In this document: in pieces, positions 13,123 to 64,000 of the stretch
Layout of the letters: every line of letters starts with the position of its first letter
How positions within the stretch are numbered: position 1 is the first letter of the stretch
Assembly: GCF_035573695.1 (NCBI RefSeq)
Contig: NZ_CP121694.1
Coordinates: forward strand, 2,518,501 to 2,582,500
Direction: 5' to 3'
From: Metallumcola ferriviriculae
GTDB lineage: Bacteria > Bacillota > JADQBR01
DNA length: 64,000 bases
Notes under the pieces: model-generated
Databases searched by the model: none
The model's input: only the letters and a program-made list of their open reading frames with translations
Told to the model about the DNA's origin: nothing
Made by a program: the position numbers and the translations under genes

Positions 13123-13167
13123 AATAACTTGACAAAAAGGTGCCTGACACCATTTTGTCAAGTTATT
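13123..13167. repeat. Dispersed palindromic repeat, complete TTGACA-type palindrome
   Basis: AATAACTTGACAAAA (13123-13137) is mirrored by TTTTGTCAAGTTATT (13153-13167) around the core GGTGCCTGACACC. The 45-base palindrome ends six bases behind the stop codon of the small transporter gene at 13174. Each strand therefore carries a TTGACA hexamer without a matching -10. Confidence 0.9.
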
Positions 13168-13173
13168 GCCTGC

Positions 13174-13533
13174 TTAGCTTCTTGAAATAAACGTCACACC
13201 CGCTAATATAAAAAGCAACCCAGTCACACGAAAGAGAGAAATATGTTCCTTAAATAACCACGCGGAGAGCAGTAAGATAAAAACATAATTCAAACTGACA
13301 AGGGGATAGGCGTAGCTCAGTTCGGTTTTGGACAGGACCGCTAGCCAGAGGACAGCGCTGATGCCAAAACATATAAACCCCAGGGGAATTTCTGGTATTA
13401 GGAACACCTGGAGCAGTTTAGCCCAGATGTCAACGGCGGAAATGGAGCCGAATTTTTTCATGCCCATTTTGATTAACACTTGCCCGACTGAACCGAAAAC
13501 AACTGATAATAGAATAACCAGCAAATTAGCCAC
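13174..13533 (-). CDS. Small EmrE/ArnE-like four-helix transporter
   Basis: A 119-residue, four-helix protein of the drug/metabolite transporter superfamily: GSVGQVLIKMGMK in helix 1, ELSYAYPLVSLNYVFILLLSAWLFKE across helix 3 and the loop, and a C-terminal GLLFILAGVTFIS. The membrane Glu typical of EmrE drug exporters is not in helix 1, so it is closer to ArnE/ArnF-type lipid-linked sugar flippase subunits. It overlaps the upstream glycosyltransferase by eight bases and closes the XrtG operon. Moving a lipid-linked sugar made by the neighbouring transferases across the membrane is a reasonable inference. The start is GTG. Confidence 0.75.
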   Translation of the reverse strand: MANLLVILLSVVFGSVGQVLIKMGMKKFGSISAVDIWAKLLQVFLIPEIPLGFICFGISAVLWLAVLSKTELSYAYPLVSLNYVFILLLSAWLFKEHISLFRVTGLLFILAGVTFISRS

Positions 13534-14290
13534 TGAACCTGCCCCTTTCTTTTGCTAATACTAAATCCATATGATCTAACAGCAATCGGAAGTAACCGCC
13601 AATAGTCCTAAAAATTTTCATTTTGCTGGCTCCTTCTTTAAGGTCGTACCGCAGTACCAAACCAACCTCAGATATTTTGGGAGAAAACGGGGCTAACTGG
13701 GCGAGAATTTGTGCCATACATGTGAAGCCGGTTTCGGTGATAAACTTGTCCTGGTAAAACTCAAACGCCCGTTGAATAATATGGGCAGAATAAAGTCGAA
13801 AACCACAGGTATAGTCTTTTACCCCCTTAATGCGTAAGCAGCAGGTCAACATGATACTGGCACATCGACTGAGCAATCTTCTATGCAGCGAAAGCCCCAC
13901 CTCTTTTCCTCCTAAGGCGTATCTTGATGCGATTACGATATCACTTCCGGCCCGCGCCTCCTCCACCATATCCACCATCAGTTGAGGACTGTGAGTGTTG
14001 TCCGCATCAAGAGTGACTATAAAATCACCTTTATCGGCCGTATCGGCGATGTATCTCAAACCGGTACGTATTCCGGCGCCCAGCCCCTTGTTTACCCCAT
14101 GCTGCAACAAGGTAATGGGCATCCTTCCAGCATACTGCCTGGTAATTACTGCAGTAGCATCGGTGCTGCCATCATCCACCACAACAATTGAATAAGACTC
14201 ATCCCCGGCCGAAAAACTATCTAAAATAGCTTCAAATAATTTCGGCAAAGCTTTTTCTTCATTTAAGGCAACCAGCAATACGTAAATCAT
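13526..14290 (-). CDS. GT2 glycosyltransferase (dolichol-phosphate-mannose-synthase-like)
   Basis: A 254-residue family 2 glycosyltransferase without obvious membrane spans. VALNEEKALPKLFEAI near the N-terminus, VVDDGSTDAT, and the metal-binding TLDADNTHSP (DXD) are visible, and the order of motifs fits DPM1-like polyprenyl-phosphate sugar synthases. These make polyprenyl-phosphate sugars at the inner membrane face. It sits between the BcsA-like transferase of the XrtG system (43 bases upstream) and the small flippase-like transporter, so it may supply a lipid-linked sugar donor. The ATG at 14290 has GAGGGGTG about eight bases ahead; a GTG three codons earlier is weaker. Confidence 0.85.
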   Translation of the reverse strand: MIYVLLVALNEEKALPKLFEAILDSFSAGDESYSIVVVDDGSTDATAVITRQYAGRMPITLLQHGVNKGLGAGIRTGLRYIADTADKGDFIVTLDADNTHSPQLMVDMVEEARAGSDIVIASRYALGGKEVGLSLHRRLLSRCASIMLTCCLRIKGVKDYTCGFRLYSAHIIQRAFEFYQDKFITETGFTCMAQILAQLAPFSPKISEVGLVLRYDLKEGASKMKIFRTIGGYFRLLLDHMDLVLAKERGRFSG

Positions 14291-14342
14291 GTTTACCACA
14301 CCCCTCTTTCACGATTGCAGACGTCGCCTCTGCACCACCCGT

Positions 14343-15695
14343 CTATGCCGAGCTCTTATTTCTACCCAGCACTCTGAAAACAAATTTACCTAGGCCGCGC
14401 AGTGCCCGCCGCGTCTGGGCCACCGGGTTCTCCGCATTCCACTGGGCGGGTTCGGTGATAGCATGTATCATGGCCGCGACACGAAACCAAAACACAATGA
14501 AGCGGAAAACGGGCATAAAGATAATCACCCAGCAGTGCTCCCGAAGATACGCCCGGTACTCTTTGTCGAGATAGAAATAGGCTACCAGCAGGTAATTGGC
14601 ATCAATGAACAAATACATCAGATAGACAAAGAAGTTAGCCAAAAGAATTAGCTCTAAAGGGTAACCGACAAATACCAAGAGCGGCGTCAGCACCGTCCAC
14701 ACTATTCTGGGAAACATCAAGGTATGGTCGATAAAGAGCATTCTGGAGGCAAAGGAGCGGATTAATTTTAGGACGCTGCCCTTGTAAAGTTCCGTATAAG
14801 AACTTATTACTTCCAGTTCTCCTCTCTGCCAGCGCACCCTTTGAGAATAAAGCTTAGCCCAAGAAGAAATCGGCTCCAAGTATATCTTTGCTTTATCCAT
14901 AAAAATAAGTTTCTGCTGGTCGTTGCGCATGCGCAGCTCAAAAGTCATCTTTGTATCCTCAGAAATTGAGTTAGAATCATATAAATGAGTGTTAAGCAGC
15001 GACCTCCTGTTAAAACAAGAAAACGCGCCGGCCAAGGTAAACAATCTATTTCTGTGAGATTGGTATTTCCTGCCCACAAAAAAGGCTTCCAAGTATTCAA
15101 GCAGTTCACAATGCTGCAGCAGCCTCAGCCCAAGCGACTTCTTATTAATCTGCTTATGATCTATCAGGATAGCTCCGGTAGCACCGGCGACTTGATCATT
15201 AAGAAACATCGCATGAACAGTTTCCAGCACCACATTAGGGCCGATCTGAGCATCGGAATCCAAATTGATGATGATTTCGCTGTTACCCAAAAAAACACCG
15301 GAGTTGAGCGCTTTTGCTTTTCCTGCCTCCTCGATCCTCACCCAGCGCAGGCAGAGACCACCATGTGCGTTGGAAAACCGGTTAAAAACGCGAAAACTAT
15401 CGTCACTGCTGCCATTATCTATCAAAAACACCTCGATTCGCTCACGAGGGTAATTTTGTGCAAAAATTGATGTCAGGCAGGCATGCAGTGTTCCTTCAGA
15501 ATTATGCACCGGCACTACTATCGACACCCGGGGATAGTAACTAATGCTCAAATCTTTATCCTCACGCTGCTCCTTTCTCAACATGCGCCAGGAAAAAATA
15601 ATATGTTTGGCGGCTATCACCCCATCCAGCATCATGGGAATGAGCAGCCAAATACCCCAAAAAATGATGAAATTCCATAAAAATTCTTTAGTCAT
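14343..15695 (-). CDS. Membrane glycosyltransferase, exosortase G-associated type (TIGR03111-like)
   Basis: A 450-residue processive-type GT2 enzyme. An N-terminal helix (about residues 8-28) is followed by the catalytic domain with VVPVHNSEGTL, IDNGSSDDS, NLDSDAQIGP (DXD), SEDTKMTF (TED-like) and QRVRWQRGE (the QxxRW motif), then several C-terminal helices from about residue 325. These are hyaluronan/cellulose synthase-like features. A distinct clade of such transferases is known to travel with XrtG in Firmicutes. It lies just behind xrtG. The sugar transferred and the acceptor are unknown; the context suggests an extracellular glycan or glycoprotein. Confidence 0.87.
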   Translation of the reverse strand: MTKEFLWNFIIFWGIWLLIPMMLDGVIAAKHIIFSWRMLRKEQREDKDLSISYYPRVSIVVPVHNSEGTLHACLTSIFAQNYPRERIEVFLIDNGSSDDSFRVFNRFSNAHGGLCLRWVRIEEAGKAKALNSGVFLGNSEIIINLDSDAQIGPNVVLETVHAMFLNDQVAGATGAILIDHKQINKKSLGLRLLQHCELLEYLEAFFVGRKYQSHRNRLFTLAGAFSCFNRRSLLNTHLYDSNSISEDTKMTFELRMRNDQQKLIFMDKAKIYLEPISSWAKLYSQRVRWQRGELEVISSYTELYKGSVLKLIRSFASRMLFIDHTLMFPRIVWTVLTPLLVFVGYPLELILLANFFVYLMYLFIDANYLLVAYFYLDKEYRAYLREHCWVIIFMPVFRFIVFWFRVAAMIHAITEPAQWNAENPVAQTRRALRGLGKFVFRVLGRNKSSA

Positions 15696-15703
15696 TGGTA
15701 ACC

Positions 15704-16297
15704 CTAATTTCCTTGTTTATTTAAAAAGAACATTGTCCTTTTGGTAAAGAAAAACCAATACAGCATCAGCATCAACAAGAAAAATACACCCCGGCCTAAA
15801 ATGGTATGGGCAATAAAGATGGCATTCCTACCCCAGTAATAAACAGCCGCTATTATCAGCTCTACCCGAACAATGTTGATGATAAAAATTAAAGCGCTGC
15901 CCACAACCAGAGCATATACCTTCTTCTGCCTGCGGAGCACCGGATAAAAAACTGCCAATCCCAGATAAACGCTGATTTCCAACAGCCCCGAACACTCAGT
16001 ACCCACTTCAAGCGAAGTATAGCCGCTGATTTGCGTGCCGGTCATCAGGATAGTACCCGCCGCTTGAAAAGGTACCACAGGAATACCCAACATCTGATTG
16101 ATACTGGTCAAGATACCAATCGCCAATTGACTGAGGCGGTATTCCACCGTGGTGTTTTGCAACATAAAAGCCATAATCAGCGCCAAACCTACTGAACCCC
16201 AGATAAAGTAAAACACCCTTATCCTATAGATATAAAAGAAAAGCAGTATAGCCAGCCAGACAACGATTATGGGCAAGAAAAGAGTTAATTTTTCCAT
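15704..16297 (-). CDS. xrtG: Exosortase family protein XrtG
   Basis: A 197-residue polytopic membrane protein of about six helices. The exosortase/archaeosortase catalytic triad is visible: Cys in GTECSGLLEIS (about residue 106), Arg in NIVRVELI and His in FIAHTILGR. Exosortases are proposed transpeptidases that cleave C-terminal sorting signals. XrtG is the Gram-positive form and its target proteins are not firmly known. It overlaps the upstream 1296-residue gene by 13 bases and precedes the associated glycosyltransferase, the diagnostic gene order. No obvious separate cargo gene with a classical PEP-CTERM tail was seen in the window. Confidence 0.87.
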   Translation of the reverse strand: MEKLTLFLPIIVVWLAILLFFYIYRIRVFYFIWGSVGLALIMAFMLQNTTVEYRLSQLAIGILTSINQMLGIPVVPFQAAGTILMTGTQISGYTSLEVGTECSGLLEISVYLGLAVFYPVLRRQKKVYALVVGSALIFIINIVRVELIIAAVYYWGRNAIFIAHTILGRGVFFLLMLMLYWFFFTKRTMFFLNKQGN

Positions 16298-19200
16298 GAA
16301 ACCGGCTTCTTTTTCTGAATAGTGATTATCCCACCTGCGACAGCTACCACCACAAACACCAGTAACAAGAAATATCCCAGCGCCGGAACAGGTGTTATCT
16401 GAATATCGCGTATTTCACCGCCGGCGCCCCGGTTGGGTATAATGTCAAAGTCGTGCTTATATAAGTAAAAATCGTCAAAATTGGGGTCCAGTACCCATTC
16501 ATCATTTTGCTTGGGAACATCATTTTTAATAAAGGACGTCATGGCATAAAAGCGAATAGGCTGGTTAGCTATGATACCCAGTTCATCAAAAGGAAAATAA
16601 AATTCAAACTGTAGGCCTTTCCCCTTCTCACCCCAGTTGCCGATATCTTTCCAAAGCGGTGCATCGCTGAGCGGCTCATTTCGGTAAAGGCGCACCCTCA
16701 CCTTGCCGGAGTTGGGGTTATACTGAAAATAACCTACTTTGTCCGCATCGTCCATATAGCTACCATTATTATTAATATCAAAGATAATCTTGCCGGACAT
16801 CTTTAGATTCTGGTCCTGCTTTACCGTGGAAGGATATCGCTTAAAGCTAAAGTAAAGCTTCGACTCCCCGTCATTGGTGCCCCAATATACACGCCTGGTA
16901 TCCCCGGCAGTATAGGACATCTGGGAAACATTGCGCACATCGCCCTCAGGGTCGTCCACATGAGGCATATTAAGCCAATCATCAAATTCCCCGTCCAGGT
17001 TGATAGCATCCGCGGCCAGGGCAGACTGAGGAACCAGCACCAGTACCATCAACAGCAACAACACTGTCAGCCCGGTGGTACGTTTCACAGCCTTAACCAA
17101 AAAAGGAATCCGCCTGCCTGATAAAAGCATCGCCAAGAGCATCACACCCAGCAGCGACATCAGTCCCCCGGCCTTAGTTGCCTGCGGCCAATGGTTAATA
17201 ATCTCCATCCGGTAATCCCCTGCCTTCCCCTTAAATTCAATCAAGTTATGCAGCCTGCCAACTTCAACATCCGCCGGGCTGTTAGATTTAATTTCCATGC
17301 TGTCCAGATATGCCATCGGAATGACCATCCAGTCGTTGCTCAATTCAGCGGGCAAATTAAAACTCAAATGCACCCCGCCGCTGTTCGGCTCAAAGATATC
17401 CAGCGGTACAATGTCCCGCACCACCGTGCGCCCCGGTTCCGCATGCAATATGCTGCCCAGCATATTCAGCACTTCCGGGTCCTCAGTAAGAAAGGCATAG
17501 TAGGGCAGGTTTAACCCCATAAAATAGATGTTGGTATCTTGATACATTTTATATCCTTCTATTGGCCGCTGTTGGTTATAATAGGTTACCAGGGATGATA
17601 CCTTATCCATCCCCTCCAACACAAAGGTCTTCCACGGTAAGTGCTCCGGCGGCAGGCTGCGCAATCTTACCGCTCTGTCACTAACACTGATCAACGGCTG
17701 CTCACGCATAATTACCGGCTCGGCCACCACACCCAAAAAAGAAGTTCGTTTAGAAAATACATCTTTCGGTGCACCGGTCAAATCTACTAACACTCTACCG
17801 CCACTGTTGGCATAATCAAGTATCAGCTCCTCGGCAGCTTTTTTTGATAACCAGTCAAAACCCGACAGCAGCAAGGTTTTATACTGCTTTAGCTCCGCCA
17901 AACTATATTTATCCACCTCAGCAAAAGCGCCGAGCTTAATCTGCGGAAATATCATCGCCAGATTAGGTGCAAACCGCCCAATGCCAAGAATCTGATAATC
18001 AGCAGACACTAGATATGGCGTCCCATCTTTGACATAGCCAGACAACCCATCAAATTCCTCCACGAAGCGAAAACCAAAATCTGCTGCTTTCGCCCGAAAA
18101 AGATCCCGGTCTGTCAATAATTCTTCCTTTACAATCAAGCTGGTAGCACCCATTTCAATCAAACGATCAAAAAGATAGTCATACCAACCGTGCTGCAGCG
18201 CAGTATTTAATAAGACGATATTTTGCCCGGTCTCAGCTCCCTGCCAAGCCCAGCCAAATATCTGCCCCCGCTGATGTTTTTCCGATATCAGGTACGAAGG
18301 CATTGACCCTTCCCCGCTTAGGTCAAGCATGGCCACCTTGAAGCCGGCATTCGCATCCACCGCCGCTGTCAACGCCCGGTCTAGGCTGCTAGGAATACTT
18401 TCTCTCGCAGTGATTAACCTGGTGGACATGTAGCCATCAGCAAATAAGAGCATCACAACAAGGATGGGAATGAGCGCCCGCTTCAGCTGTCTCCTATCGA
18501 TAAGGCTGCTTATATCCGGCACTTCCACAATACCTAGCAGTAATAAGGCAATTCCCGCCGATGTTGCCCGATCAGGCCACAGCAAATGATGAAACGGCAG
18601 TTGGTTATATATTGGCCGAAAATAAGTGGTAGAAGCGGCAAAAACCAATAACCCCAGCACCAGGGCTGCCTTTTGATAAACTTTTTTCCTGGACCACTGA
18701 AACAACGCAGCAAGGGCTAAAACAAAATAACTGATGCCAAAGTAAAAGGCATCGTAATTATGTAAACGCTCCCAAGGATTTAGCCGAACCACCGGGGAAA
18801 AGTACCGCATGGTGTCAGTGGCGGCCTCGGCATTTACCCCGGTAATACCACCAACTAAGCTAGGTACAAGCCACCAGCAAGTCAGTAAAATACCGACAAC
18901 AAAGACACCAACCGTGCGTATGAAATCCTTAAAGGATGTACCACCAAACAGCATAATAAGAAATAAATATAAGGTAAGAGTAATCAGGAATAAAGCACCC
19001 ATCATCGCGTGGGACAGAATAATAAGGCTGACCGTAGCAGCCAATGCAACTATCTTTATGCCCCTTTTTTCAGAGTTTTGGATAGCAAGAACGAGATATA
19101 TTAAGAGAGGCAAAAACATGAGAGCCAACATACGCGGAACATTACCTTCAGAAAAACCTACCCGCAGGTTTTCAGGTACCACCACCCAAATCAGAGCTAG

Positions 19201-20175
19201 TGCAACTGAATGAACCAGCGTCAACCTGTTACGAAAAAGCAGCCAGCTGCCGCTGCCCACAAAACTAACGATAAACAAAAATAAATTCACCGCCCTGACC
19301 ATATCCCCGGTAAAAAATCTTACCAGCGCAAGCACATAATAAGGAAGCGGCGCCCAGTAACGAAACGGATCAATACCGTTATACCAATCTGCCAAATAAC
19401 GCGGAAACCAATCACCCTGCATGATAGCTTGGTATAAATACTCCGCCTTAAATACGTGCCCCATAGAGTCTGAGCCCCACGGCAGCTGAGCCTTGGTGAA
19501 TAATACCGGATAATATATCAGGAGATTAACGCAAAATATAACTAATAAAGCCCAAAATACCCGCCAAACAGTTTTTCCTTCTTCTACAGCCGCAGACTCC
19601 AGATTATCACCCTGCTGCGTATCTTCTTCCTCATCTTCCATTTTTTCTTCATCAGTAGCAGCTGCCTCTTGTGCCGCATCCTCAAGTACATCTTCGCCGG
19701 ATACTACTACTGCTGCGCTTCCCGCCGGCTCCGTATCCACCGGGCCCTGATGCTGTTGGTAAAATTCATCAGGCAATGCACCACCGATGAAGCCCGCATC
19801 TTCTTGGAGTCCCGTTACCACAAAGCCTCGGGTGGGGGATTCGCTGATGGCTAATTCCATCAGAACAAAACCGTGCTCAGCAAGCTTCCCCTTGATACCT
19901 TGAGAAAAATACAAGCCAAGATTCTCTGTGGAAGGGCTAAACCGGTCAAATGGCTTTAATAAATTGAGGGTTTTTCCTTCATAATAGGAAAGATACTTCC
20001 TGACCACAGATTCTACTTCTGTAAATCCAGTTCCCAGGTCAGTACCATTAAAACTCTCACTGGCAATTTTCGCACTGATTTCCCATATGTGAGTATGCGG
20101 TTGTCCTTTTTTGCCGTCAATCACTATCCAATGTTCCGCAGATAGGAAAAACGATATATTAAGGTACATCTGCAT
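16285..20175 (-). CDS. XrtG-associated fusion: 6-pyruvoyl-tetrahydropterin-synthase-like domain plus large membrane/extracellular protein
   Basis: A 1296-residue multidomain protein. Residues 1-125 resemble 6-pyruvoyltetrahydropterin synthase (the TIGR03112-like domain known beside XrtG), with His15, His27 and His29 placed like the zinc ligands (SAEH, PHTH) and a PSTENLG motif. A Glu/Asp-rich linker (about 140-200) leads into ten or more membrane spans (about 205-600) with a GT-C-like look, a large predicted extracellular part (about 600-1035), two helices, and a CBM9/DOMON-like beta domain after LDGEFDDWLN (about 1095-1245). It ends in PVPALG, a hydrophobic helix and a basic tail. Ahead of it is AGGGG. 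Biochemical function unknown; probably the core of the XrtG surface system. Confidence 0.75.
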   Translation of the reverse strand: MQMYLNISFFLSAEHWIVIDGKKGQPHTHIWEISAKIASESFNGTDLGTGFTEVESVVRKYLSYYEGKTLNLLKPFDRFSPSTENLGLYFSQGIKGKLAEHGFVLMELAISESPTRGFVVTGLQEDAGFIGGALPDEFYQQHQGPVDTEPAGSAAVVVSGEDVLEDAAQEAAATDEEKMEDEEEDTQQGDNLESAAVEEGKTVWRVFWALLVIFCVNLLIYYPVLFTKAQLPWGSDSMGHVFKAEYLYQAIMQGDWFPRYLADWYNGIDPFRYWAPLPYYVLALVRFFTGDMVRAVNLFLFIVSFVGSGSWLLFRNRLTLVHSVALALIWVVVPENLRVGFSEGNVPRMLALMFLPLLIYLVLAIQNSEKRGIKIVALAATVSLIILSHAMMGALFLITLTLYLFLIMLFGGTSFKDFIRTVGVFVVGILLTCWWLVPSLVGGITGVNAEAATDTMRYFSPVVRLNPWERLHNYDAFYFGISYFVLALAALFQWSRKKVYQKAALVLGLLVFAASTTYFRPIYNQLPFHHLLWPDRATSAGIALLLLGIVEVPDISSLIDRRQLKRALIPILVVMLLFADGYMSTRLITARESIPSSLDRALTAAVDANAGFKVAMLDLSGEGSMPSYLISEKHQRGQIFGWAWQGAETGQNIVLLNTALQHGWYDYLFDRLIEMGATSLIVKEELLTDRDLFRAKAADFGFRFVEEFDGLSGYVKDGTPYLVSADYQILGIGRFAPNLAMIFPQIKLGAFAEVDKYSLAELKQYKTLLLSGFDWLSKKAAEELILDYANSGGRVLVDLTGAPKDVFSKRTSFLGVVAEPVIMREQPLISVSDRAVRLRSLPPEHLPWKTFVLEGMDKVSSLVTYYNQQRPIEGYKMYQDTNIYFMGLNLPYYAFLTEDPEVLNMLGSILHAEPGRTVVRDIVPLDIFEPNSGGVHLSFNLPAELSNDWMVIPMAYLDSMEIKSNSPADVEVGRLHNLIEFKGKAGDYRMEIINHWPQATKAGGLMSLLGVMLLAMLLSGRRIPFLVKAVKRTTGLTVLLLLMVLVLVPQSALAADAINLDGEFDDWLNMPHVDDPEGDVRNVSQMSYTAGDTRRVYWGTNDGESKLYFSFKRYPSTVKQDQNLKMSGKIIFDINNNGSYMDDADKVGYFQYNPNSGKVRVRLYRNEPLSDAPLWKDIGNWGEKGKGLQFEFYFPFDELGIIANQPIRFYAMTSFIKNDVPKQNDEWVLDPNFDDFYLYKHDFDIIPNRGAGGEIRDIQITPVPALGYFLLLVFVVVAVAGGIITIQKKKPVSWKN

Positions 20176-20276
20176 TATAATTACCCCTGACTGATCTCAT
20201 TTAGCTAGTACTGGTTATATAAGTTAATTCGACATTTCCCGATAAATTCCTTGTTAAATTGTGACAAAATGGGGTC

Positions 20277-20418
20277 AGGCACCAGGGGGGTGTCTCAAGG
20301 CACCAGGGGGGTGTCTCAAAAAAAATAAGTGACACCCTTTTGGTGTCAGGCACCGGGGGGTGTCACTTATTTTAGACACCCTTTTGGTGTCAGGCACCGG
20401 GGGGTGTCACTTATTTTA
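20277..20418. repeat. Locally amplified array of the dispersed palindrome
   Basis: A 21-base unit (AGGCACCAGGGGGGTGTCTC plus A) occurs twice head to tail at 20277-20318. Then a 44-base unit starting GACACCCTTTTGGTGTCAGG occurs twice without mismatch at 20331-20374 and 20375-20418, each ending GGTGTCACTTATTTTA. The array lies two bases behind the deoC stop codon at 20421 and upstream of the 1296-residue gene. Confidence 0.92.
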
Positions 20419-32794: not shown

Positions 32795-34740
32795 GTAGTT
32801 TCTCGGAAAGTCTCAAGTCAGTTATACCGGGTTACAACAAGCTGGTAATAACTGGTTCACCCCCACTCAACCCAACAACTTCACATAGCAAAAATAAGCG
32901 GCATAGCAAGATATGATGAGGTATTGTGACACAATTATCTGTATTTCTAAAAAAACAGTCTAAATGCTACTTGACAAACGTAATTTCGTCCCACAATCGA
33001 GATAGAGGTAATTTTTTCCTCTAATCGACTAATGTTGGAGGCGATTTTTTGTTAGGTTATTGGCGTACACATGTCGAGTACCAGGATTGGCTGAAATCTG
33101 AACTTGTTTCTTTAACGGTGACGCATGAAGCTAATATTCGTTTTTATGCTCCGCTCATTGAGAAGGTCTATATATTTAACCTTGACCCGGTTAAAAAGGT
33201 CATTGCTAAGCTTTATTCTCCTCTGGGAAGACCAGCTAAAAATCAACCTGAACTTCTTAGGGCTTTGGTGGTAATGCTTCATTGCCAGATTCATGACCCT
33301 ACTAAGTTTGTTGATAAGTTGAGGGCTTCTCCTGTTCTTAGGGCCATTTGCGGGTTTGAAAAGGGCGAAACCCCTGGTGTTGGTACTTTTTATGACTTGT
33401 TGGAACGTTTATGGCTTCTAGATAATCCGCAAAAGGCTATCCGAAAACCAAAATCCAAAGGGAGAAAACGTCCTAAGTCTGGGAAAAAGTTACCTGCTAA
33501 GCATCCTGGTATTGTTAAAAGATTAGTTGATAGGGCTCTTAAAGGGCAGGTCATTGAGAAAAGGCCAGAAAGTATCTTGCAGAAAATTTTAAAAGAGTGT
33601 GCCGTTTTACCATCATCCAAGTTAGGTCTTCTTGGTAATCCCAACAAACTGGCTATTGCCGGTGACGGAGCCCCACTCCTTACCGGTGCCACTCCCTACG
33701 GTAAAAGAATCTGTGATTGCCCCTCTAAAGGCATTTACCGCTGCAAGTGCAAACGTGTCTTTACTGACCCGGATGCTAATTGGGGTTGGGATAGTTACCA
33801 TGACCAATGGTTTTACGGTCACACCCTGTACTCTATTACTTCAGCGGATAGTAAAAATGACCTGCCGCTTTATCTGCGTTTGGTACAGGGGTCTAGAAAT
33901 GATAGTGTTACTTTTGTTGTTTCTTGGGCTGAATTGCTTCACCTCTATCCTGATTTTAAGTTTTCTAAAGCCCTTTTGGATGCTGCTCATGATGTTTATG
34001 ATATTTACCGTCTGCTGCATGCTAATGAAACCGAACCTTTTATTGACCTTAACAATAGGGCTAAAGGAAACAATACATTTCCTGGGCCTATTAACGTTGA
34101 TGAAAATGGTGTCCCTATCTGCCTTGAAGGTTTACCGATGCTTAACTGGGGTTTTAGCAACGATAGATGCCGCATTAAGTGGCGCTGCCCTCATCACAAG
34201 GATAGTAGCAAGTGTTCTAAAAAACATGAATGTTCTCCTAGTGCGTACGGCCGGGTGGTTTACACTAAACCCATTTGGGATTTGCGTCTTTTTACGCCAA
34301 CTCCTCGTAACTCTAAGGCATGGAAACATGTTTATGCTAGACGAACTACCGTAGAGCGCACCTTTAAACGTATACTTGTCGATTACAAAATTGAGTTGGC
34401 TAATGCCCGGACTAAAAAACGTTGGTTTTGGCAGGCAACTTTGGCGGCCATTAATCAACACTTGGATGCTCAAGTTGCTGTTGTTAAACCAAATATTTTA
34501 GAAAAGATTGGCTTAGAAACCTTCTCTAAATCGGCTTAAACCTACACTCTTAATTTCATCCTACCCTAGTTATTGGCTGGTCTATTAACTCTAAGGACAC
34601 CGGCTTAGTTTTCTATTGCCTTTTTTCCACCAAGCTAACCTTCTTTGCTTACCTTTGCTATGTGAAGTTGTCAAAGAGCTATCTTCTTGGGAAAACCTTT
34701 TCTTGTTCCCGATTTATTTACCTAGTTTCCGAGATGCTAC
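32795..34740 (+). mobile_element. Insertion sequence, 1946 bases, DDE transposase
   Basis: The ends GTAGTTTCTCGGAAA (32795-32809) and TTTCCGAGATGCTAC (34726-34740) are inverted repeats matching at 13 of 15 positions. They flank one transposase gene, and both sides carry the direct repeat GTGTCA. The element sits inside a dispersed palindrome: its removal with one GTGTCA rejoins GTGACACC, core GGTGTCAGGCACC and the mirrored arm. The transposase frame is intact, so the element may be active. The family was not assigned; a six-base duplication is unlike IS1182, which usually makes four. Confidence 0.9.
33049..34539 (+). CDS. DDE transposase of the insertion sequence
   Basis: A 496-residue transposase and the only plus-strand gene. 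YSPLGRPAKNQPELLRALVV (about residues 56-75) resembles the N-terminal domain common to IS4/IS5/IS1182-type enzymes. Likely catalytic residues are Asp206 (AIAGDGAPL), Asp311 or Asp315 (LLDAAHDVYD) and Glu436 (TTVERTFKR). A Cys cluster CDCPSKGIYRCKC at about 222-234 and Cys/His spacing near 375-395 look like zinc binding. The TTG at 33049 has GGAGG seven bases ahead. The codon pattern is more AT-rich than the neighbours, in keeping with acquisition. Confidence 0.9.
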   Translation: MLGYWRTHVEYQDWLKSELVSLTVTHEANIRFYAPLIEKVYIFNLDPVKKVIAKLYSPLGRPAKNQPELLRALVVMLHCQIHDPTKFVDKLRASPVLRAICGFEKGETPGVGTFYDLLERLWLLDNPQKAIRKPKSKGRKRPKSGKKLPAKHPGIVKRLVDRALKGQVIEKRPESILQKILKECAVLPSSKLGLLGNPNKLAIAGDGAPLLTGATPYGKRICDCPSKGIYRCKCKRVFTDPDANWGWDSYHDQWFYGHTLYSITSADSKNDLPLYLRLVQGSRNDSVTFVVSWAELLHLYPDFKFSKALLDAAHDVYDIYRLLHANETEPFIDLNNRAKGNNTFPGPINVDENGVPICLEGLPMLNWGFSNDRCRIKWRCPHHKDSSKCSKKHECSPSAYGRVVYTKPIWDLRLFTPTPRNSKAWKHVYARRTTVERTFKRILVDYKIELANARTKKRWFWQATLAAINQHLDAQVAVVKPNILEKIGLETFSKSA

Positions 34741-58914: not shown

Positions 58915-61900
58915 CTAGTTAAATAAATTTATCTGTTCAACATCTTCAGCTTTAAATACAACTTTCTCTAACCGTTCGTCGGTTTTAAGAATTATATCTT
59001 CTTTAATCTGTTGCTCTAATCGGATGTATTCATTGGTGCCAAAGACGTTTTGTCTGATTTTGATCATGTAGATTAAGTTAAAACAATTTAGTATTGAATT
59101 TTGTTTCAAATCGGTCAGACAGATCAACTGAGTATTGTATTTTTCGGCAATCCTAAACAACGGCTTTAATAAATGTTCCGAAGAGATTGGGCCGAACGGA
59201 TTATCCATAATTAAAACCTTTGTATCTTTGTTTCTTTGATAATCATCTTCAAACTTCATACTGGTCCTGGTATATGAAATAAGTGCAACCAGCACGGCAA
59301 AAAATGAAACAAACCTTTCCCCGCCGGAATTCTCCTTCATAACCTGCTCCCAGGATTTATATCGATTATTTTTGACATTAATGTCTATTTTATATGCGGA
59401 AATATTCATTTTCCCAAGATCGGAAAGTACATTTAGCAGTTCCTTAGTGGACATATATTTGCCAATTTTTTTACGAATTTCTTCAATTTTCTTTTCCTCT
59501 TTCATATCTCTTTTAATAATACCAACAGAGTTTTCGATATAGCCTTTCATCTTTGTACTATTCTCTTCCTCGGTTTCACTCAAAGGTTCCATATCTATTT
59601 TCAGCATCGGTATCGGGCGGGTTTTCCCCTCCAGTTTAATTGAAGAATTCTCTGCTATTTTTTGCACCTCGTCATAAACCTGCTTTGCATGCAGGTAGCT
59701 ATGTTGAATCATATCCCTCTTATTCTTTTCTACATTAGCCAATCTCTGTTCACAAGCTTTAATTAGTTTTGTCAAAGACTCATTACTAATCAACATTCTC
59801 TCGCCTAAATAGAAATATTTATCTTTGTCGCCTTGTGCAGCTTCAATCAACGGTTCCAGCCCTGCCAAAATGTTCTCTATATGCTTATTTTTACCTTCAT
59901 ACCTGGCTTTTACCTTATTGTAGCGCGTCATGGCGTTTTGCTCATGTGCCCTGTTCTCAGCCTTGCAATGCTTTAGTTCTTTGATGCATTTTACAAAATC
60001 CGTTTGTATCCCCTGTTTTATTCGATATTCAGTATTTACTTCATACCTTTCCACTTCAACTTGTCCGGCAATTTTATTGGCAACCGTGTCATATTCTTTA
60101 GATACCTTATCAAGCTCAGTTATTATACTTTTTGCTCCAATAATGTCTTCCTTTTTCTGCTTTCGTCTAGCAGCAAAATTTGATTTTACCAGCGCCGGCT
60201 CTAGTGGCAATTCCGCCAATTTTTTGACCTCAGTTTCTGCGGAAGCAAATTTGCCTTTTGCTTCCCGCAGATCACCTTCCACGTCCCTGCATTTTTTAAC
60301 TAATTTCTTATGTTCCGCCTTCAGGTTACTAACTTTAGTGTTTAGTTCCTTTAACTGCTTCGGATCATAAACTATCTGGCTATATTGACTTTCTTCCAAC
60401 TGATATGATGCTAATTGCCCCTCTTTCTCTTGCAGTTCATCTTTCTTGTTCTTAAAATCCCGCTCCAACCGCTCCAAATCAGAAGTTATTTTACGCTTTA
60501 ATGCCTGCAGTTCCGCCTCCATAATGTCTATATCCTGATCCAGTTGTTCACCTGCTTCAGCATCCTCATACCGCCTCAGCCTATCCTCTTTGTCTTCAAT
60601 TTCTTGGCCGACCTTAACCTCTTCCCCTACCAGCGCTTCCTTCTCTTCGCTAAAGGTCTGCTTATCTTTGGCAGCCACTGTCTTTTTTCTATGAATTATT
60701 TCTATGGACTCAGCATACTCGCCGCTTAATCTTCGATTTTTCAGATATTCTTCGTTTTCGCCAATGAATTGATTTAACTTTTCCTTTTTAGCGATTTCCT
60801 CAGCCCGCTGCCTGTCAATTTCATCTATTCTGCGTCTCTTATTATTTATGCTTTCCGAGATTTCCTTTAGTCTAGTTTCCAGGTCTTCGATTTTACTTCT
60901 TACCGAACTAACCTGATTTTCTAATTTACTTTTTTCCCTTTCCAGGTCATAAAGATGATTTTTATCAAAATCAAACTGCCTTAGTACCTGCAGGGCATCC
61001 CTGGCAGATGTCAGTTCCTTCCGATAATGAGTCAGTTGCTCGGTTACTTTCTCCATTTCACCGTGCAATTCTTGCAAATATGCGTCTAAACTATCCGCAT
61101 CAATCATCCTGTTGTCATAGAGACAGATGAACTGTAATTGCTTTCCTAAGTAAACGGCATTACCGTCAACGGCATAAGTTTTGTTAATATCACTATACGA
61201 CAAAATGGGAACCATCTGATTGATCTTTAGCGCCATCTCCATACTCTTCAGTTTTTCTATGTCATCATCGTACAATAGGAAAGCAAACGGCAGTACTGGG
61301 TTTTGTTCAACTAAGCCGTTTCTAATATCGAGCTTCTTTTTCCTTAGATAATTCTCTCCAGTTTCAAAGTCAATGTCGTGATTGATTAGCCATTGTCTAA
61401 ATTCTTTAGAGACATGCAGTGTCCCGTTTTCTAAAGATGCAATAGTCTCCCTAATCGTCATGGCACTTAAGTCCAGTTCCCTTTCTCTTTTCTGCAATTC
61501 ACTAATTATTTTCTTAACGAAAATGTGGTTTTCCCGGTGATTGAACCTTTTGCTGAAATCAAGATCATATCTAGTAAAGATGGGCTTTATAGCCGCTTCA
61601 ACATCGTTGTAAGCCGATATTTTGTCCACCAATCTCGCAGCATCAACCTTCCGTTGCTCCATGCTTTCTCTTAGAAGATTCAACTGCCCTCTTGCTTCAG
61701 CAGTTTTTTTCAGCAAATCAGTTATTTTTTGCTCTGTATTGCTTCTTTCCGCATCTAAAGCCGCCATCTGCTCTTTTAGCGTAAGGATATATTGATCGAA
61801 ATAGTCCTTTTCAATCTCTCCCAGCAAGTTTCTTTCATATATTAGTGCCAATTCATCACGTTTTTTCTGTTCGTCCTTCTCAAACTGCTCTATTTTACTG

Positions 61901-63333
61901 TCCATTCGCCCCTTTTTATTCTGGAGCTCGCTGCTTTCTCGGTCAAGCTGGTCTATTTCTTTATCAGCTTCCTTAATTTTATCCGCCTTTTGCCCTTTAC
62001 CGGCTACGATAGCTATAGCATTTTTCTTTAACTGTTCCAACACACTCGCATAAGCAATCTTAAGTGAGTATTCTAGATTTCTTATTTTCGTTTTGCTTTC
62101 TGCGCTGTGTTTAATCATATCAATTTCAGCTTTGATGCCGGCTAACGTTTGTTTTAATTCCTTTATTTTGCCGTAGTCCCGGGCCGCCAGCTGCACCACA
62201 ATTTCCTTTTCATTCAAGTCAATTTTTTCCTGTAATGACGCTAACGCTGCTTTTGCCTCCTCCAATGACTTGGCAAAGCCATTGACATTGTCTAATTGGT
62301 CATAATATTCCTTAGACCTTTCTTCCAAATCAATCCTCTTTAATCCTTTTTCGCAGTCGGCAATTTTGTTATTTTCAACCCGGAGCTTATCATCCATCTT
62401 ATTTATTTCGTTTTTCAAAAAATAGTACATGCTGGCAATATTGCCTTCCATTTCTGCCTCGCTGTCCAGAGACTTTATCAAATCGTTAAGCTGATCCAAG
62501 TACTCCTCTGTTTCACTTAGAAACCCTTGATACAGTTCCTTTTCATGGATAAACTGCTCGTTACTGATCATTTCTTCCACCAGATTTTCCAACATCAGTT
62601 CCAGTTTCTTCTGGTCCCTTTCTTCCTTGTTGACTACCTTCTCGATAGTTTTCAAAATCCAATTATTCATCAATTGTTGAGAAGTCTTACATTTTTCAAA
62701 GATTTCAATTACTCCGCCTTCAGATTCATTGATTTTTAAAATAATAGACTTCCACTCATCCGGAAATATGTTGTAACTTTCCAGTTCACCTCGATAATCC
62801 ATACCCTCTTCGTCAGTAAATAATCTAACCCGACATTCTCTATCCTTTGCTTTTTCCGAAATCAGTTTTCTAGCATTTTTAAAATCTTCTATATATATTC
62901 TTTCATTTAACTTTTTAATCAGCGCTATGTTTTCTATATCAAAAAGGTTTGATTCACGGTAATATGACGTGAATGTAAAATATTTGACGCTATTATTTAC
63001 TTCTTCATCCTGCTCTCTAACCTGGTGTTCCCTGTTGGTTAAACCGACACCCGTTAGCAAATATCCACCCTGTTCCTCCAGTTTCCACTCAATTAGCACA
63101 TACGTCGGCGTCTTCCTGCCTTTAAAGAAATCTTCCATTCTCCTGCCCATCAGTTTGGTCTTAGGTATTATCGGTTGAAGCAGTAATTGAACCAATACGC
63201 TTTTACCACCACCGTTTTTTAGGCTGAGCAGAGCATTCTCCCCCTGATAGAAAATAAAAATCTCATCGATAATATTTCTGTTATTGTTATTATAGGAAAA
63301 GTTGATTATTCTGACTCTATTTATTTGAGGCAT
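58915..63333 (-). CDS. MukB/JetC-like SMC-family ATPase, probable Wadjet-type component
   Basis: A 1472-residue protein with an SMC-like plan. Walker A SLKNGGGKSV is at residues 37-46. Long coiled coils rich in Lys, Glu and Leu run from about 275 to 600 and 740 to 1290, with a probable hinge at about 600-740. The C-terminal head has signature SGGERF (1336-1341) and Walker B KVLIMDNP (1372-1379). The Walker B Asp is followed by Asn, not the usual Glu. The ATG at 63333 follows GAGGAGGG and overlaps the DUF6063-like gene by 17 bases. Family knowledge ties such pairs to Wadjet plasmid/phage defence. No JetD nuclease lies downstream in the window. Confidence 0.78.
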   Translation of the reverse strand: MPQINRVRIINFSYNNNNRNIIDEIFIFYQGENALLSLKNGGGKSVLVQLLLQPIIPKTKLMGRRMEDFFKGRKTPTYVLIEWKLEEQGGYLLTGVGLTNREHQVREQDEEVNNSVKYFTFTSYYRESNLFDIENIALIKKLNERIYIEDFKNARKLISEKAKDRECRVRLFTDEEGMDYRGELESYNIFPDEWKSIILKINESEGGVIEIFEKCKTSQQLMNNWILKTIEKVVNKEERDQKKLELMLENLVEEMISNEQFIHEKELYQGFLSETEEYLDQLNDLIKSLDSEAEMEGNIASMYYFLKNEINKMDDKLRVENNKIADCEKGLKRIDLEERSKEYYDQLDNVNGFAKSLEEAKAALASLQEKIDLNEKEIVVQLAARDYGKIKELKQTLAGIKAEIDMIKHSAESKTKIRNLEYSLKIAYASVLEQLKKNAIAIVAGKGQKADKIKEADKEIDQLDRESSELQNKKGRMDSKIEQFEKDEQKKRDELALIYERNLLGEIEKDYFDQYILTLKEQMAALDAERSNTEQKITDLLKKTAEARGQLNLLRESMEQRKVDAARLVDKISAYNDVEAAIKPIFTRYDLDFSKRFNHRENHIFVKKIISELQKRERELDLSAMTIRETIASLENGTLHVSKEFRQWLINHDIDFETGENYLRKKKLDIRNGLVEQNPVLPFAFLLYDDDIEKLKSMEMALKINQMVPILSYSDINKTYAVDGNAVYLGKQLQFICLYDNRMIDADSLDAYLQELHGEMEKVTEQLTHYRKELTSARDALQVLRQFDFDKNHLYDLEREKSKLENQVSSVRSKIEDLETRLKEISESINNKRRRIDEIDRQRAEEIAKKEKLNQFIGENEEYLKNRRLSGEYAESIEIIHRKKTVAAKDKQTFSEEKEALVGEEVKVGQEIEDKEDRLRRYEDAEAGEQLDQDIDIMEAELQALKRKITSDLERLERDFKNKKDELQEKEGQLASYQLEESQYSQIVYDPKQLKELNTKVSNLKAEHKKLVKKCRDVEGDLREAKGKFASAETEVKKLAELPLEPALVKSNFAARRKQKKEDIIGAKSIITELDKVSKEYDTVANKIAGQVEVERYEVNTEYRIKQGIQTDFVKCIKELKHCKAENRAHEQNAMTRYNKVKARYEGKNKHIENILAGLEPLIEAAQGDKDKYFYLGERMLISNESLTKLIKACEQRLANVEKNKRDMIQHSYLHAKQVYDEVQKIAENSSIKLEGKTRPIPMLKIDMEPLSETEEENSTKMKGYIENSVGIIKRDMKEEKKIEEIRKKIGKYMSTKELLNVLSDLGKMNISAYKIDINVKNNRYKSWEQVMKENSGGERFVSFFAVLVALISYTRTSMKFEDDYQRNKDTKVLIMDNPFGPISSEHLLKPLFRIAEKYNTQLICLTDLKQNSILNCFNLIYMIKIRQNVFGTNEYIRLEQQIKEDIILKTDERLEKVVFKAEDVEQINLFN

Positions 63334-64000
63334 TGTTACCCTCCTCAGTAAATATACTGTTGATTTCATCAATTCTGCTGTCGTTCAGAAAATAATAGGT
63401 CATCAAGTCATCTAATTTTTTTGTAGTCCTTATTTCCTGCTTATCTTCCATTAATCGAATCAGCTTTTCCTGCTCCAGCAAAGTGCATATTCTCAGTACG
63501 GTACCATGCTTTGTTGTTCTCTTATTCTCCTCATAAACGATCTTTTGGTTCCAAACTTCAGCAATTCTGATAAGGTTTATATTTAGGTCCTCTTCCGTTT
63601 CTATAACGTCCTCTTGATTGTTAGTAAGAATTGCTTCAAACCTTTGGTCCAGTTCGTCAATCAAAGCCATTACTCTGATAAATTCTCTCTGCTTCGGGTT
63701 TTTGTTCTTCCCACTATAGAATTTATATAAGATGAACATAGTAATATAATACGATAGGTACACGTCACTCAAACGGGCATTTGAACCGATCCATTCCCTA
63801 AAGTTCTTGTTTTTAAATCCCAATAAGCTGTTATCGTGATTAGGGAGAAGGTAGATGGTATTATTTATTTTGATGATCCTGCATTCCATTTCCTCTTCAA
63901 ATTCGCTGAGCACTTCCTGCACTTCCGAGTTTAAACATTCAATAAATAAATCGCTGTGAGCATCTCTGTCCAGCTGCCCATGCTCCAGTAACACTTTAAA
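63317..64000 (-). CDS. DUF6063-like protein, probable MukE/JetB-type partner (5' end outside window)
   Basis: The frame is open from the window edge to a stop at 63317 (227 residues seen; N-terminus missing). It is a soluble, helix-rich protein; the segment INLIRIAEVWNQKIVYEENK followed by TVLRICTLLEQEKLI looks like a winged-helix pair, as in MukE-like kleisin partners. I recall DUF6063 as the family. It overlaps the SMC-type gene and would be its adaptor. The remaining subunits (JetA-like kleisin, JetD nuclease) should lie beyond 64000 if this is a full system. Confidence 0.65.
   Translation of the reverse strand, partial: FKVLLEHGQLDRDAHSDLFIECLNSEVQEVLSEFEEEMECRIIKINNTIYLLPNHDNSLLGFKNKNFREWIGSNARLSDVYLSYYITMFILYKFYSGKNKNPKQREFIRVMALIDELDQRFEAILTNNQEDVIETEEDLNINLIRIAEVWNQKIVYEENKRTTKHGTVLRICTLLEQEKLIRLMEDKQEIRTTKKLDDLMTYYFLNDSRIDEINSIFTEEGNNASNK

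Follow-up and report, generated by a model that had tools for sequence, protein, structure and literature searches.

In the published exosortase model the enzyme cleaves its substrate and passes the newly formed C-terminus on to another group (PMC1569441, PMC7157517). In the archaeosortase ArtA/PGF-CTERM system, Cys cleaves a C-terminal signal and a lipid is then attached (PMC7157517, PMC11980579), and this serves as the model mechanism for the locus described here. The PEP-CTERM/EpsH system (PMC1569441) resembles the locus in its C-R-H membrane enzyme, its tripartite P-x-P signal and its link to polysaccharide genes; however, the window (the whole 64,000-nucleotide stretch of DNA that was analysed) apparently holds one dedicated substrate in cis, as opposed to the many-target Gram-negative arrangement. 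The locus is of the XrtG/Firmicu-CTERM type (TIGR03110, TIGR03111, TIGR03112, TIGR04145), which NCBI models and a Lactiplantibacillus paper already describe; the predicted cognate is Firmicu-CTERM (TIGR04145), counted in L. plantarum among the components of a "complete XrtG system" (PMC12854382). Annotations of exosortase G are widespread, and for neither its substrate nor its chemistry does the literature searched go beyond prediction. The initial annotation of the window, which held that these systems have no established substrate, is thus true experimentally, although it passed over Firmicu-CTERM as the cognate already predicted (PMC12854382). The XrtG, GT2 and PTPS domain of the window all score over the model cut-offs, and the neighbouring secreted-type protein has a tripartite tail, as in the Firmicu-CTERM system. 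In contrast, the partner in the window is fused to GT-C and PTPS parts and misses the Firmicu-CTERM cut-off, and its tail reads TPVPALG where Lachnospiraceae have the [ST][ST]G type. A further parallel is the ArnC-ArnE/F-ArnT pathway, together with other GT-C enzymes (AftD, STT3, DPY19): a polyprenyl-phosphate sugar synthase, a small flippase and a GT-C are likewise encoded in one operon, but the GT-C of the window has an N-terminal PTPS-like domain and a putative C-terminal exosortase substrate.

The XrtG unit consists of five genes at positions 13174-20175 of the window, bounded by two terminator-like stems. Its gene order and coordinates had been proposed in the initial annotation, and the open reading frames, all on the minus strand, and the family models agree with them. 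The description "tightly overlapped" fits two junctions, as the fusion gene and xrtG share 13 bp and the dpm and emrE genes 8 bp, but is slightly overstated for the other two, with gaps of 8 bp between xrtG and the glycosyltransferase gene and 43 bp between the latter and dpm. The features are as follows.

13139..13162 (-), terminator-like stem right after the last gene (ArnF/EmrE-like)
13174..13533 (-), ArnF/EmrE-like small flippase gene (family models)
13526..14299 (-), DPM/ArnC-like GT2 gene, polyprenyl-phosphate sugar synthase type (family models)
14343..15695 (-), XrtG-associated GT2 gene (TIGR03111 over cut-off; processive-synthase motifs)
15704..16297 (-), XrtG exosortase gene (TIGR03110 over cut-off; C102, R144, H164)
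16285..20175 (-), fusion protein gene, 1296 aa (family models, AlphaFold, tail and signal-like segment)
16288..16395 (-), predicted XrtG sorting tail, residues 1261-1296: TPVPALG, TM helix, KKK (tails of relatives)
16396..17013 (-), DOM domain, residues 1055-1260, beta-rich (weak TIGR04145 match)
17014..17100 (-), internal signal-peptide-like segment, residues 1026-1054, LVKAVKRTTGLTVLLLLMVLVLVPQSALA followed by ADA (sequence)
17086..19578 (-), GT-C glycosyltransferase part, residues 200-1030, with PF10131 at 271-892 (AlphaFold2 and Foldseek)
19468..19470 (-), Asp236 just behind TM1, putative catalytic Asp of the GT-C part (invariant in 42/42 relatives)
19816..20157 (-), PTPS-like (TIGR03112) domain, residues 7-120 (TIGR03112 match and conserved residues)
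20330..20348 (-), terminator-like stem upstream of the XrtG unit

XrtG scores 112.3 bits against TIGR03110 (cut-off 102.75) and adjoins a TIGR03111 glycosyltransferase and a PTPS-related domain. Its catalytic residues C102 (E-C-S-G), R144 (N-I-V-R) and H164 (A-H-T) are intact, so these residues give no ground for rejecting the XrtG assignment of the initial annotation. Relative to ArtA, His presumably takes the place of the second Arg. The GT2 at 14343-15695 is membrane-embedded, reaches 402.9 bits against TIGR03111 (cut-off 363.95) and has the D, DxD, ED and QxxRW motifs of processive synthases. For the flippase (13174-13533) the best NCBIfam model is ArnF, with an E value of 1.9e-17 and a score below the ArnF cut-off. 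The synthase, flippase and GT-C genes resemble a polyprenyl-phosphate sugar route.

The fusion protein looks, from its sequence, like a PTPS-GT-C protein joined in frame to an entire secreted protein that carries its own sorting tail. The initial annotation had it as a pterin-synthase-like domain fused to a polytopic membrane protein with a large outside part. The first element is indeed PTPS-like, matching TIGR03112 over residues 7-120 with 87.4 bits (cut-off 69.35) and conserving H15, H27, H29, E84, E112 and P114; the zinc-ligand-type residues H15, H27 and H29 are found in 69/69 PTPS-like copies, and the two Glu are essentially invariant. However, the domain is probably not a pterin synthase, because the site of the PTPS/QueD catalytic Cys, which we take to be four residues before the HxH motif, is Lys; the QueD model, at 22 bits, does not reach its cut-off of 89.25. 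Neither the PTPS domain nor the GT-C profile gave a useful match when searched against PDB sequences.

The polytopic middle of the fusion, with its large outside portion, is by its predicted fold more than a membrane protein: it is a GT-C glycosyltransferase. PF10131 covers residues 271-892 (E 2.8e-134), and an AlphaFold2 model of residues 200-1060, built with 42 sequences, has a mean pLDDT of 90.4 and a pTM of 0.90. The top Foldseek matches of the modelled residues in the PDB were all GT-C glycosyltransferases (AftD, STT3/OST, AglB, DPY19, AftA, ArnT and PglB), with a probability of 1.00 and a best E value of 2.1e-9. In GT-C enzymes a conserved acidic residue follows the first helix, in the first outer loop, and Asp236 is a candidate for this catalytic Asp. 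Counting the GT-C part, the operon encodes three transferases plus a flippase. PF10131 is listed among GT-C families in a published HHpred table, which gives its function as unknown (PMC7801869); seen as a GT-C transferase, it connects sorting by XrtG with a concrete pathway of glycosylation.

Behind the GT-C part, the signal-like segment is made up of KAVKRTTG, 19 hydrophobic residues and PQSALA-ADA, and is present at the same place in three Thermincola-type fusions; its reading as a signal peptide is based on hydropathy and the ALA-A site, as opposed to a dedicated predictor. The DOM domain that follows has a calcium-loop-like stretch, DINNNGSYMDDAD, and matches TIGR04145 (Firmicu-CTERM) at 15.9 bits (E 0.009), below the cut-off of 50. 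The tail then shows all parts of a tripartite sorting signal after an exported-type domain (TPVPALG, a TM helix at 1268-1286 and KKK), and DOM relatives keep the pattern [STA]P-x-P-x-L-G, helix and basic end. This C-terminal domain had been called CBM9/DOMON-like, a label that is plausible although weakly supported: it passes for no Pfam family, and the best sensible match in a Foldseek search with a DOM-XrtG fusion relative was ethylbenzene dehydrogenase gamma (2ivf_C, probability 0.84, E 0.11), which is suggestive at most; every match had an E value of 0.001 or more, and exosortase structures were absent from the results. Instead of a passive binding module, the domain is best read, from its own signal-like segment and tail, as the substrate of XrtG carried in cis. 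The pair in the window should be active, to judge from the residues, because XrtG keeps C102, R144 and H164 and the tail keeps P-x-P.

XrtG could alternatively serve unlinked surface proteins through a general signal, the fused domain being a carbohydrate-binding part of the glycosyltransferase. Many Gram-negative exosortases do serve many PEP-CTERM proteins (PMC1569441), and DOM weakly resembles carbohydrate- or ligand-binding beta domains. However, a profile search of the 3.72-Mb single-contig genome, within whose reach tails on unrelated domains do not fall, found no second DOM or Firmicu-CTERM protein; the fused copy, at 13.3 bits in that search (again under the 50-bit cut-off), is the sole DOM, and the DOM partner adjoins XrtG in relatives. 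We consider this alternative very improbable. XrtG is also present in a single copy, and the one XrtG and one DOM of the genome are apparently a dedicated pair.

Across the phylum, the TIGR03111 transferase is a patchy module, found in 9/398 genomes; in the family of the source genome, the two further genomes sampled both lack it (0/2). One scan of a genome collection with nine GT2 sequences yielded 80 named loci, spread over Bacillota, Chloroflexota and a few Actinomycetota, and about 90 loci were compared overall. The order PTPS, GT-C, DOM, XrtG, GT2 recurs across relatives. Among loci with long flanks, a PTPS domain lies beside xrtG and its glycosyltransferase in 43/46 and a PF10131-like protein in 42/46, so the arrangement is not due to chance, and the linkage proposed at the outset is retained in relatives. 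A count of DPM in 46/46 loci was discarded, as it was inflated by cross-matching to the other GT2. In both Bacillota and Chloroflexota, DOM either adjoins the XrtG locus or is fused inside it. In some relatives it is a separate secreted protein encoded just before xrtG; it sits on the GT-C end in the window, in Thermincola-type loci and in L059 (Chloroflexota), and on the front of XrtG in Syntrophomonas, Dethiobacter, Desulfosporosinus and others. In Lachnospiraceae and Clostridium the secreted partner is another protein, one of Firmicu-CTERM type. The Chloroflexota enzymes tested against the NCBI XrtG model score 78-92 bits, below 102.75.

The XrtG alignment shows three states of the nucleophile: Cys, Ser, and the non-Cys residues of the fused clade. 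Cys is found in the window and in all other unfused Bacillota, and Ser in most Chloroflexota XrtG, where it is invariant (25/25 aligned). Outside the Lachnospiraceae/Clostridium clade, all 23 of 23 Cys enzymes have the tail Pro (SPxPxLG), counting DOM-type partners and the Tepidiforma and actinobacterial ones, the tails of Tepidiforma-type proteins having been aligned by eye; with Ser enzymes the second tail Pro is replaced by S, N, D or T (28/28). The stricter rule that Cys always goes with P-x-P was rejected, as the Lachnospiraceae/Clostridium clade keeps Cys with another tail, [ST][ST]G.... In a quick GT2 tree, nucleophile and tail trait both switch three times, and together. A topology with all Ser types in one clade is rejected (p-AU 1.5e-12). 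A more careful GT2 tree supports the key branches at 95-100/86-100 (bootstrap/SH-aLRT). Under random placement of 3-7 changes the pattern was matched at most 3 times in 400,000, an optimistic figure given that the trait was defined post hoc and the joint switch noticed before being tested. A sign test on independent pairs gives p 0.25; with three switches it is underpowered, and significance is out of reach.

The simplest account of these alignments is that catalytic residue and tail motif co-adapt, in which case the DOM tail would be the recognition signal of XrtG. The Cys/Ser and tail differences might instead be independent lineage markers. Most Ser types are Chloroflexota, the independent switches are few and the test was post hoc, all of which would fit such markers, but the Cys-type Chloroflexota (the Tepidiforma group L067/L069/L071/L104, and L059) have the tail Pro while their Ser sister groups lack it, which breaks a simple explanation by phylum, and the relevant branches are the well-supported ones above. 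Lineage markers are an unlikely explanation. With co-adaptation as the preferred reading, the comparison of loci names a candidate substrate for XrtG, a cut-site motif and the matching enzyme residue, and so offers a testable target.

The third state belongs to the DOM-XrtG fusions, which form one Bacillota clade. Their nucleophile position is never Cys in the 15 readable loci (seven S, six N, one R and one T), while E101, S103, N141, H164 and R169 are invariant and R144 is kept in 14/15; relaxation in this clade, as seen in the alignment, thus appears clearly centred on the nucleophile position. Several independent losses of Cys were considered and rejected, the tree giving one origin of the fusion; the careful tree has one Cys-loss event followed by at least three further changes of residue. 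Because the fusion arose once, the clade amounts to one natural experiment. Most simply, cleavage would be unneeded with enzyme and substrate in one chain, and the nucleophile would decay. Another account would make XrtG a membrane scaffold or a component of glycan transfer, with the DOM tail an ordinary anchor and adjacency reflecting complex formation. The persistence of the rest of XrtG and of the operon in 15 fusion loci without the nucleophile speaks for a scaffold, and for a non-catalytic role that matters in those loci, as does the tracking of XrtG with glycosyltransferases in every locus. However, all XrtG outside the fused clade have C or S as nucleophile, in covariation with the tail motif, which a scaffold would not need. 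We regard this account as unlikely.

Returning to XrtG as an enzyme acting on the DOM tail, a pairing supported by the comparison of sequences, we consider it likely that the operon is a self-contained system for protein anchoring and glycan synthesis, with the substrate of the exosortase joined to a glycosyltransferase that works beside the enzyme. The DPM-like GT2 would load a sugar onto polyprenyl phosphate inside the cell, and the ArnF/EmrE-like protein would flip the polyprenyl-phosphate sugar outward. The GT-C part, its fold predicted, may then transfer the sugar to an acceptor outside the membrane, while the PTPS-like domain, at the end facing the cytoplasm, may serve as a zinc-site ligand or regulatory domain. 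The TIGR03111 GT2, to judge from its motifs, would make or extend the glycan. DOM would be exported behind the internal signal-like segment, possibly freed by signal peptidase, and XrtG would recognise TPVPALG, with Cys102 cleaving the tail and handing the new C-terminus to an acceptor, presumably a product, of lipid or glycan type, that the adjacent enzymes make. The initial idea that synthesis, export and anchoring are linked in one pathway thereby survives in its broad form; its details have changed: the membrane part is a GT-C transferase, and the likely sorting substrate is the domain at the C-terminus.

The fusions, the Ser form and the pseudoenzyme form look like undescribed variants, and a limited literature search found no description of the polyprotein form, of the Ser form with a matched signal or of the fused pseudo-exosortase. 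The full picture, of Cys XrtG with P-x-P, Chloroflexota Ser XrtG with a co-evolved P-A-[SND], fused pseudo-exosortases and a substrate/GT-C polyprotein in the window, has in our estimate an even chance of being correct. Natural Cys, Ser and nucleophile-less forms of XrtG provide ready-made controls.

Several minor observations concern individual relatives and the surroundings of the locus. In L022 (8085-9533; also in L005), a relative with the fusion type of the window, the xrtG reading frame continues into a truncated TIGR03111 glycosyltransferase, which is either decay or an assembly error. One contig labelled "Desulfovibrio" has two modules about 16 kb apart (L054 and L064), and in one of them the DOM-XrtG gene is broken; since these sequences group with Bacillota, the contig is probably mislabelled. 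In two Syntrophomonas loci (L017 and L038), a second GT-C-like protein, two DPM-like genes and a flippase are encoded 3′ of the GT2. Within the window, the intergenic palindrome GGTGTCAGGCACC occurs in 17 copies against 0.03 expected, often paired about 40 bp apart; copies lie at both ends of the XrtG unit (13139 and 20271-20398) and elsewhere. A transposase-like ORF is located at 33049-34539 (DDE_Tnp_1, E 3.6e-6), and the Wadjet type III genes JetB3 and JetC3 (PADLOC) lie at the window edge, at 58915-63994, with their neighbours beyond it.
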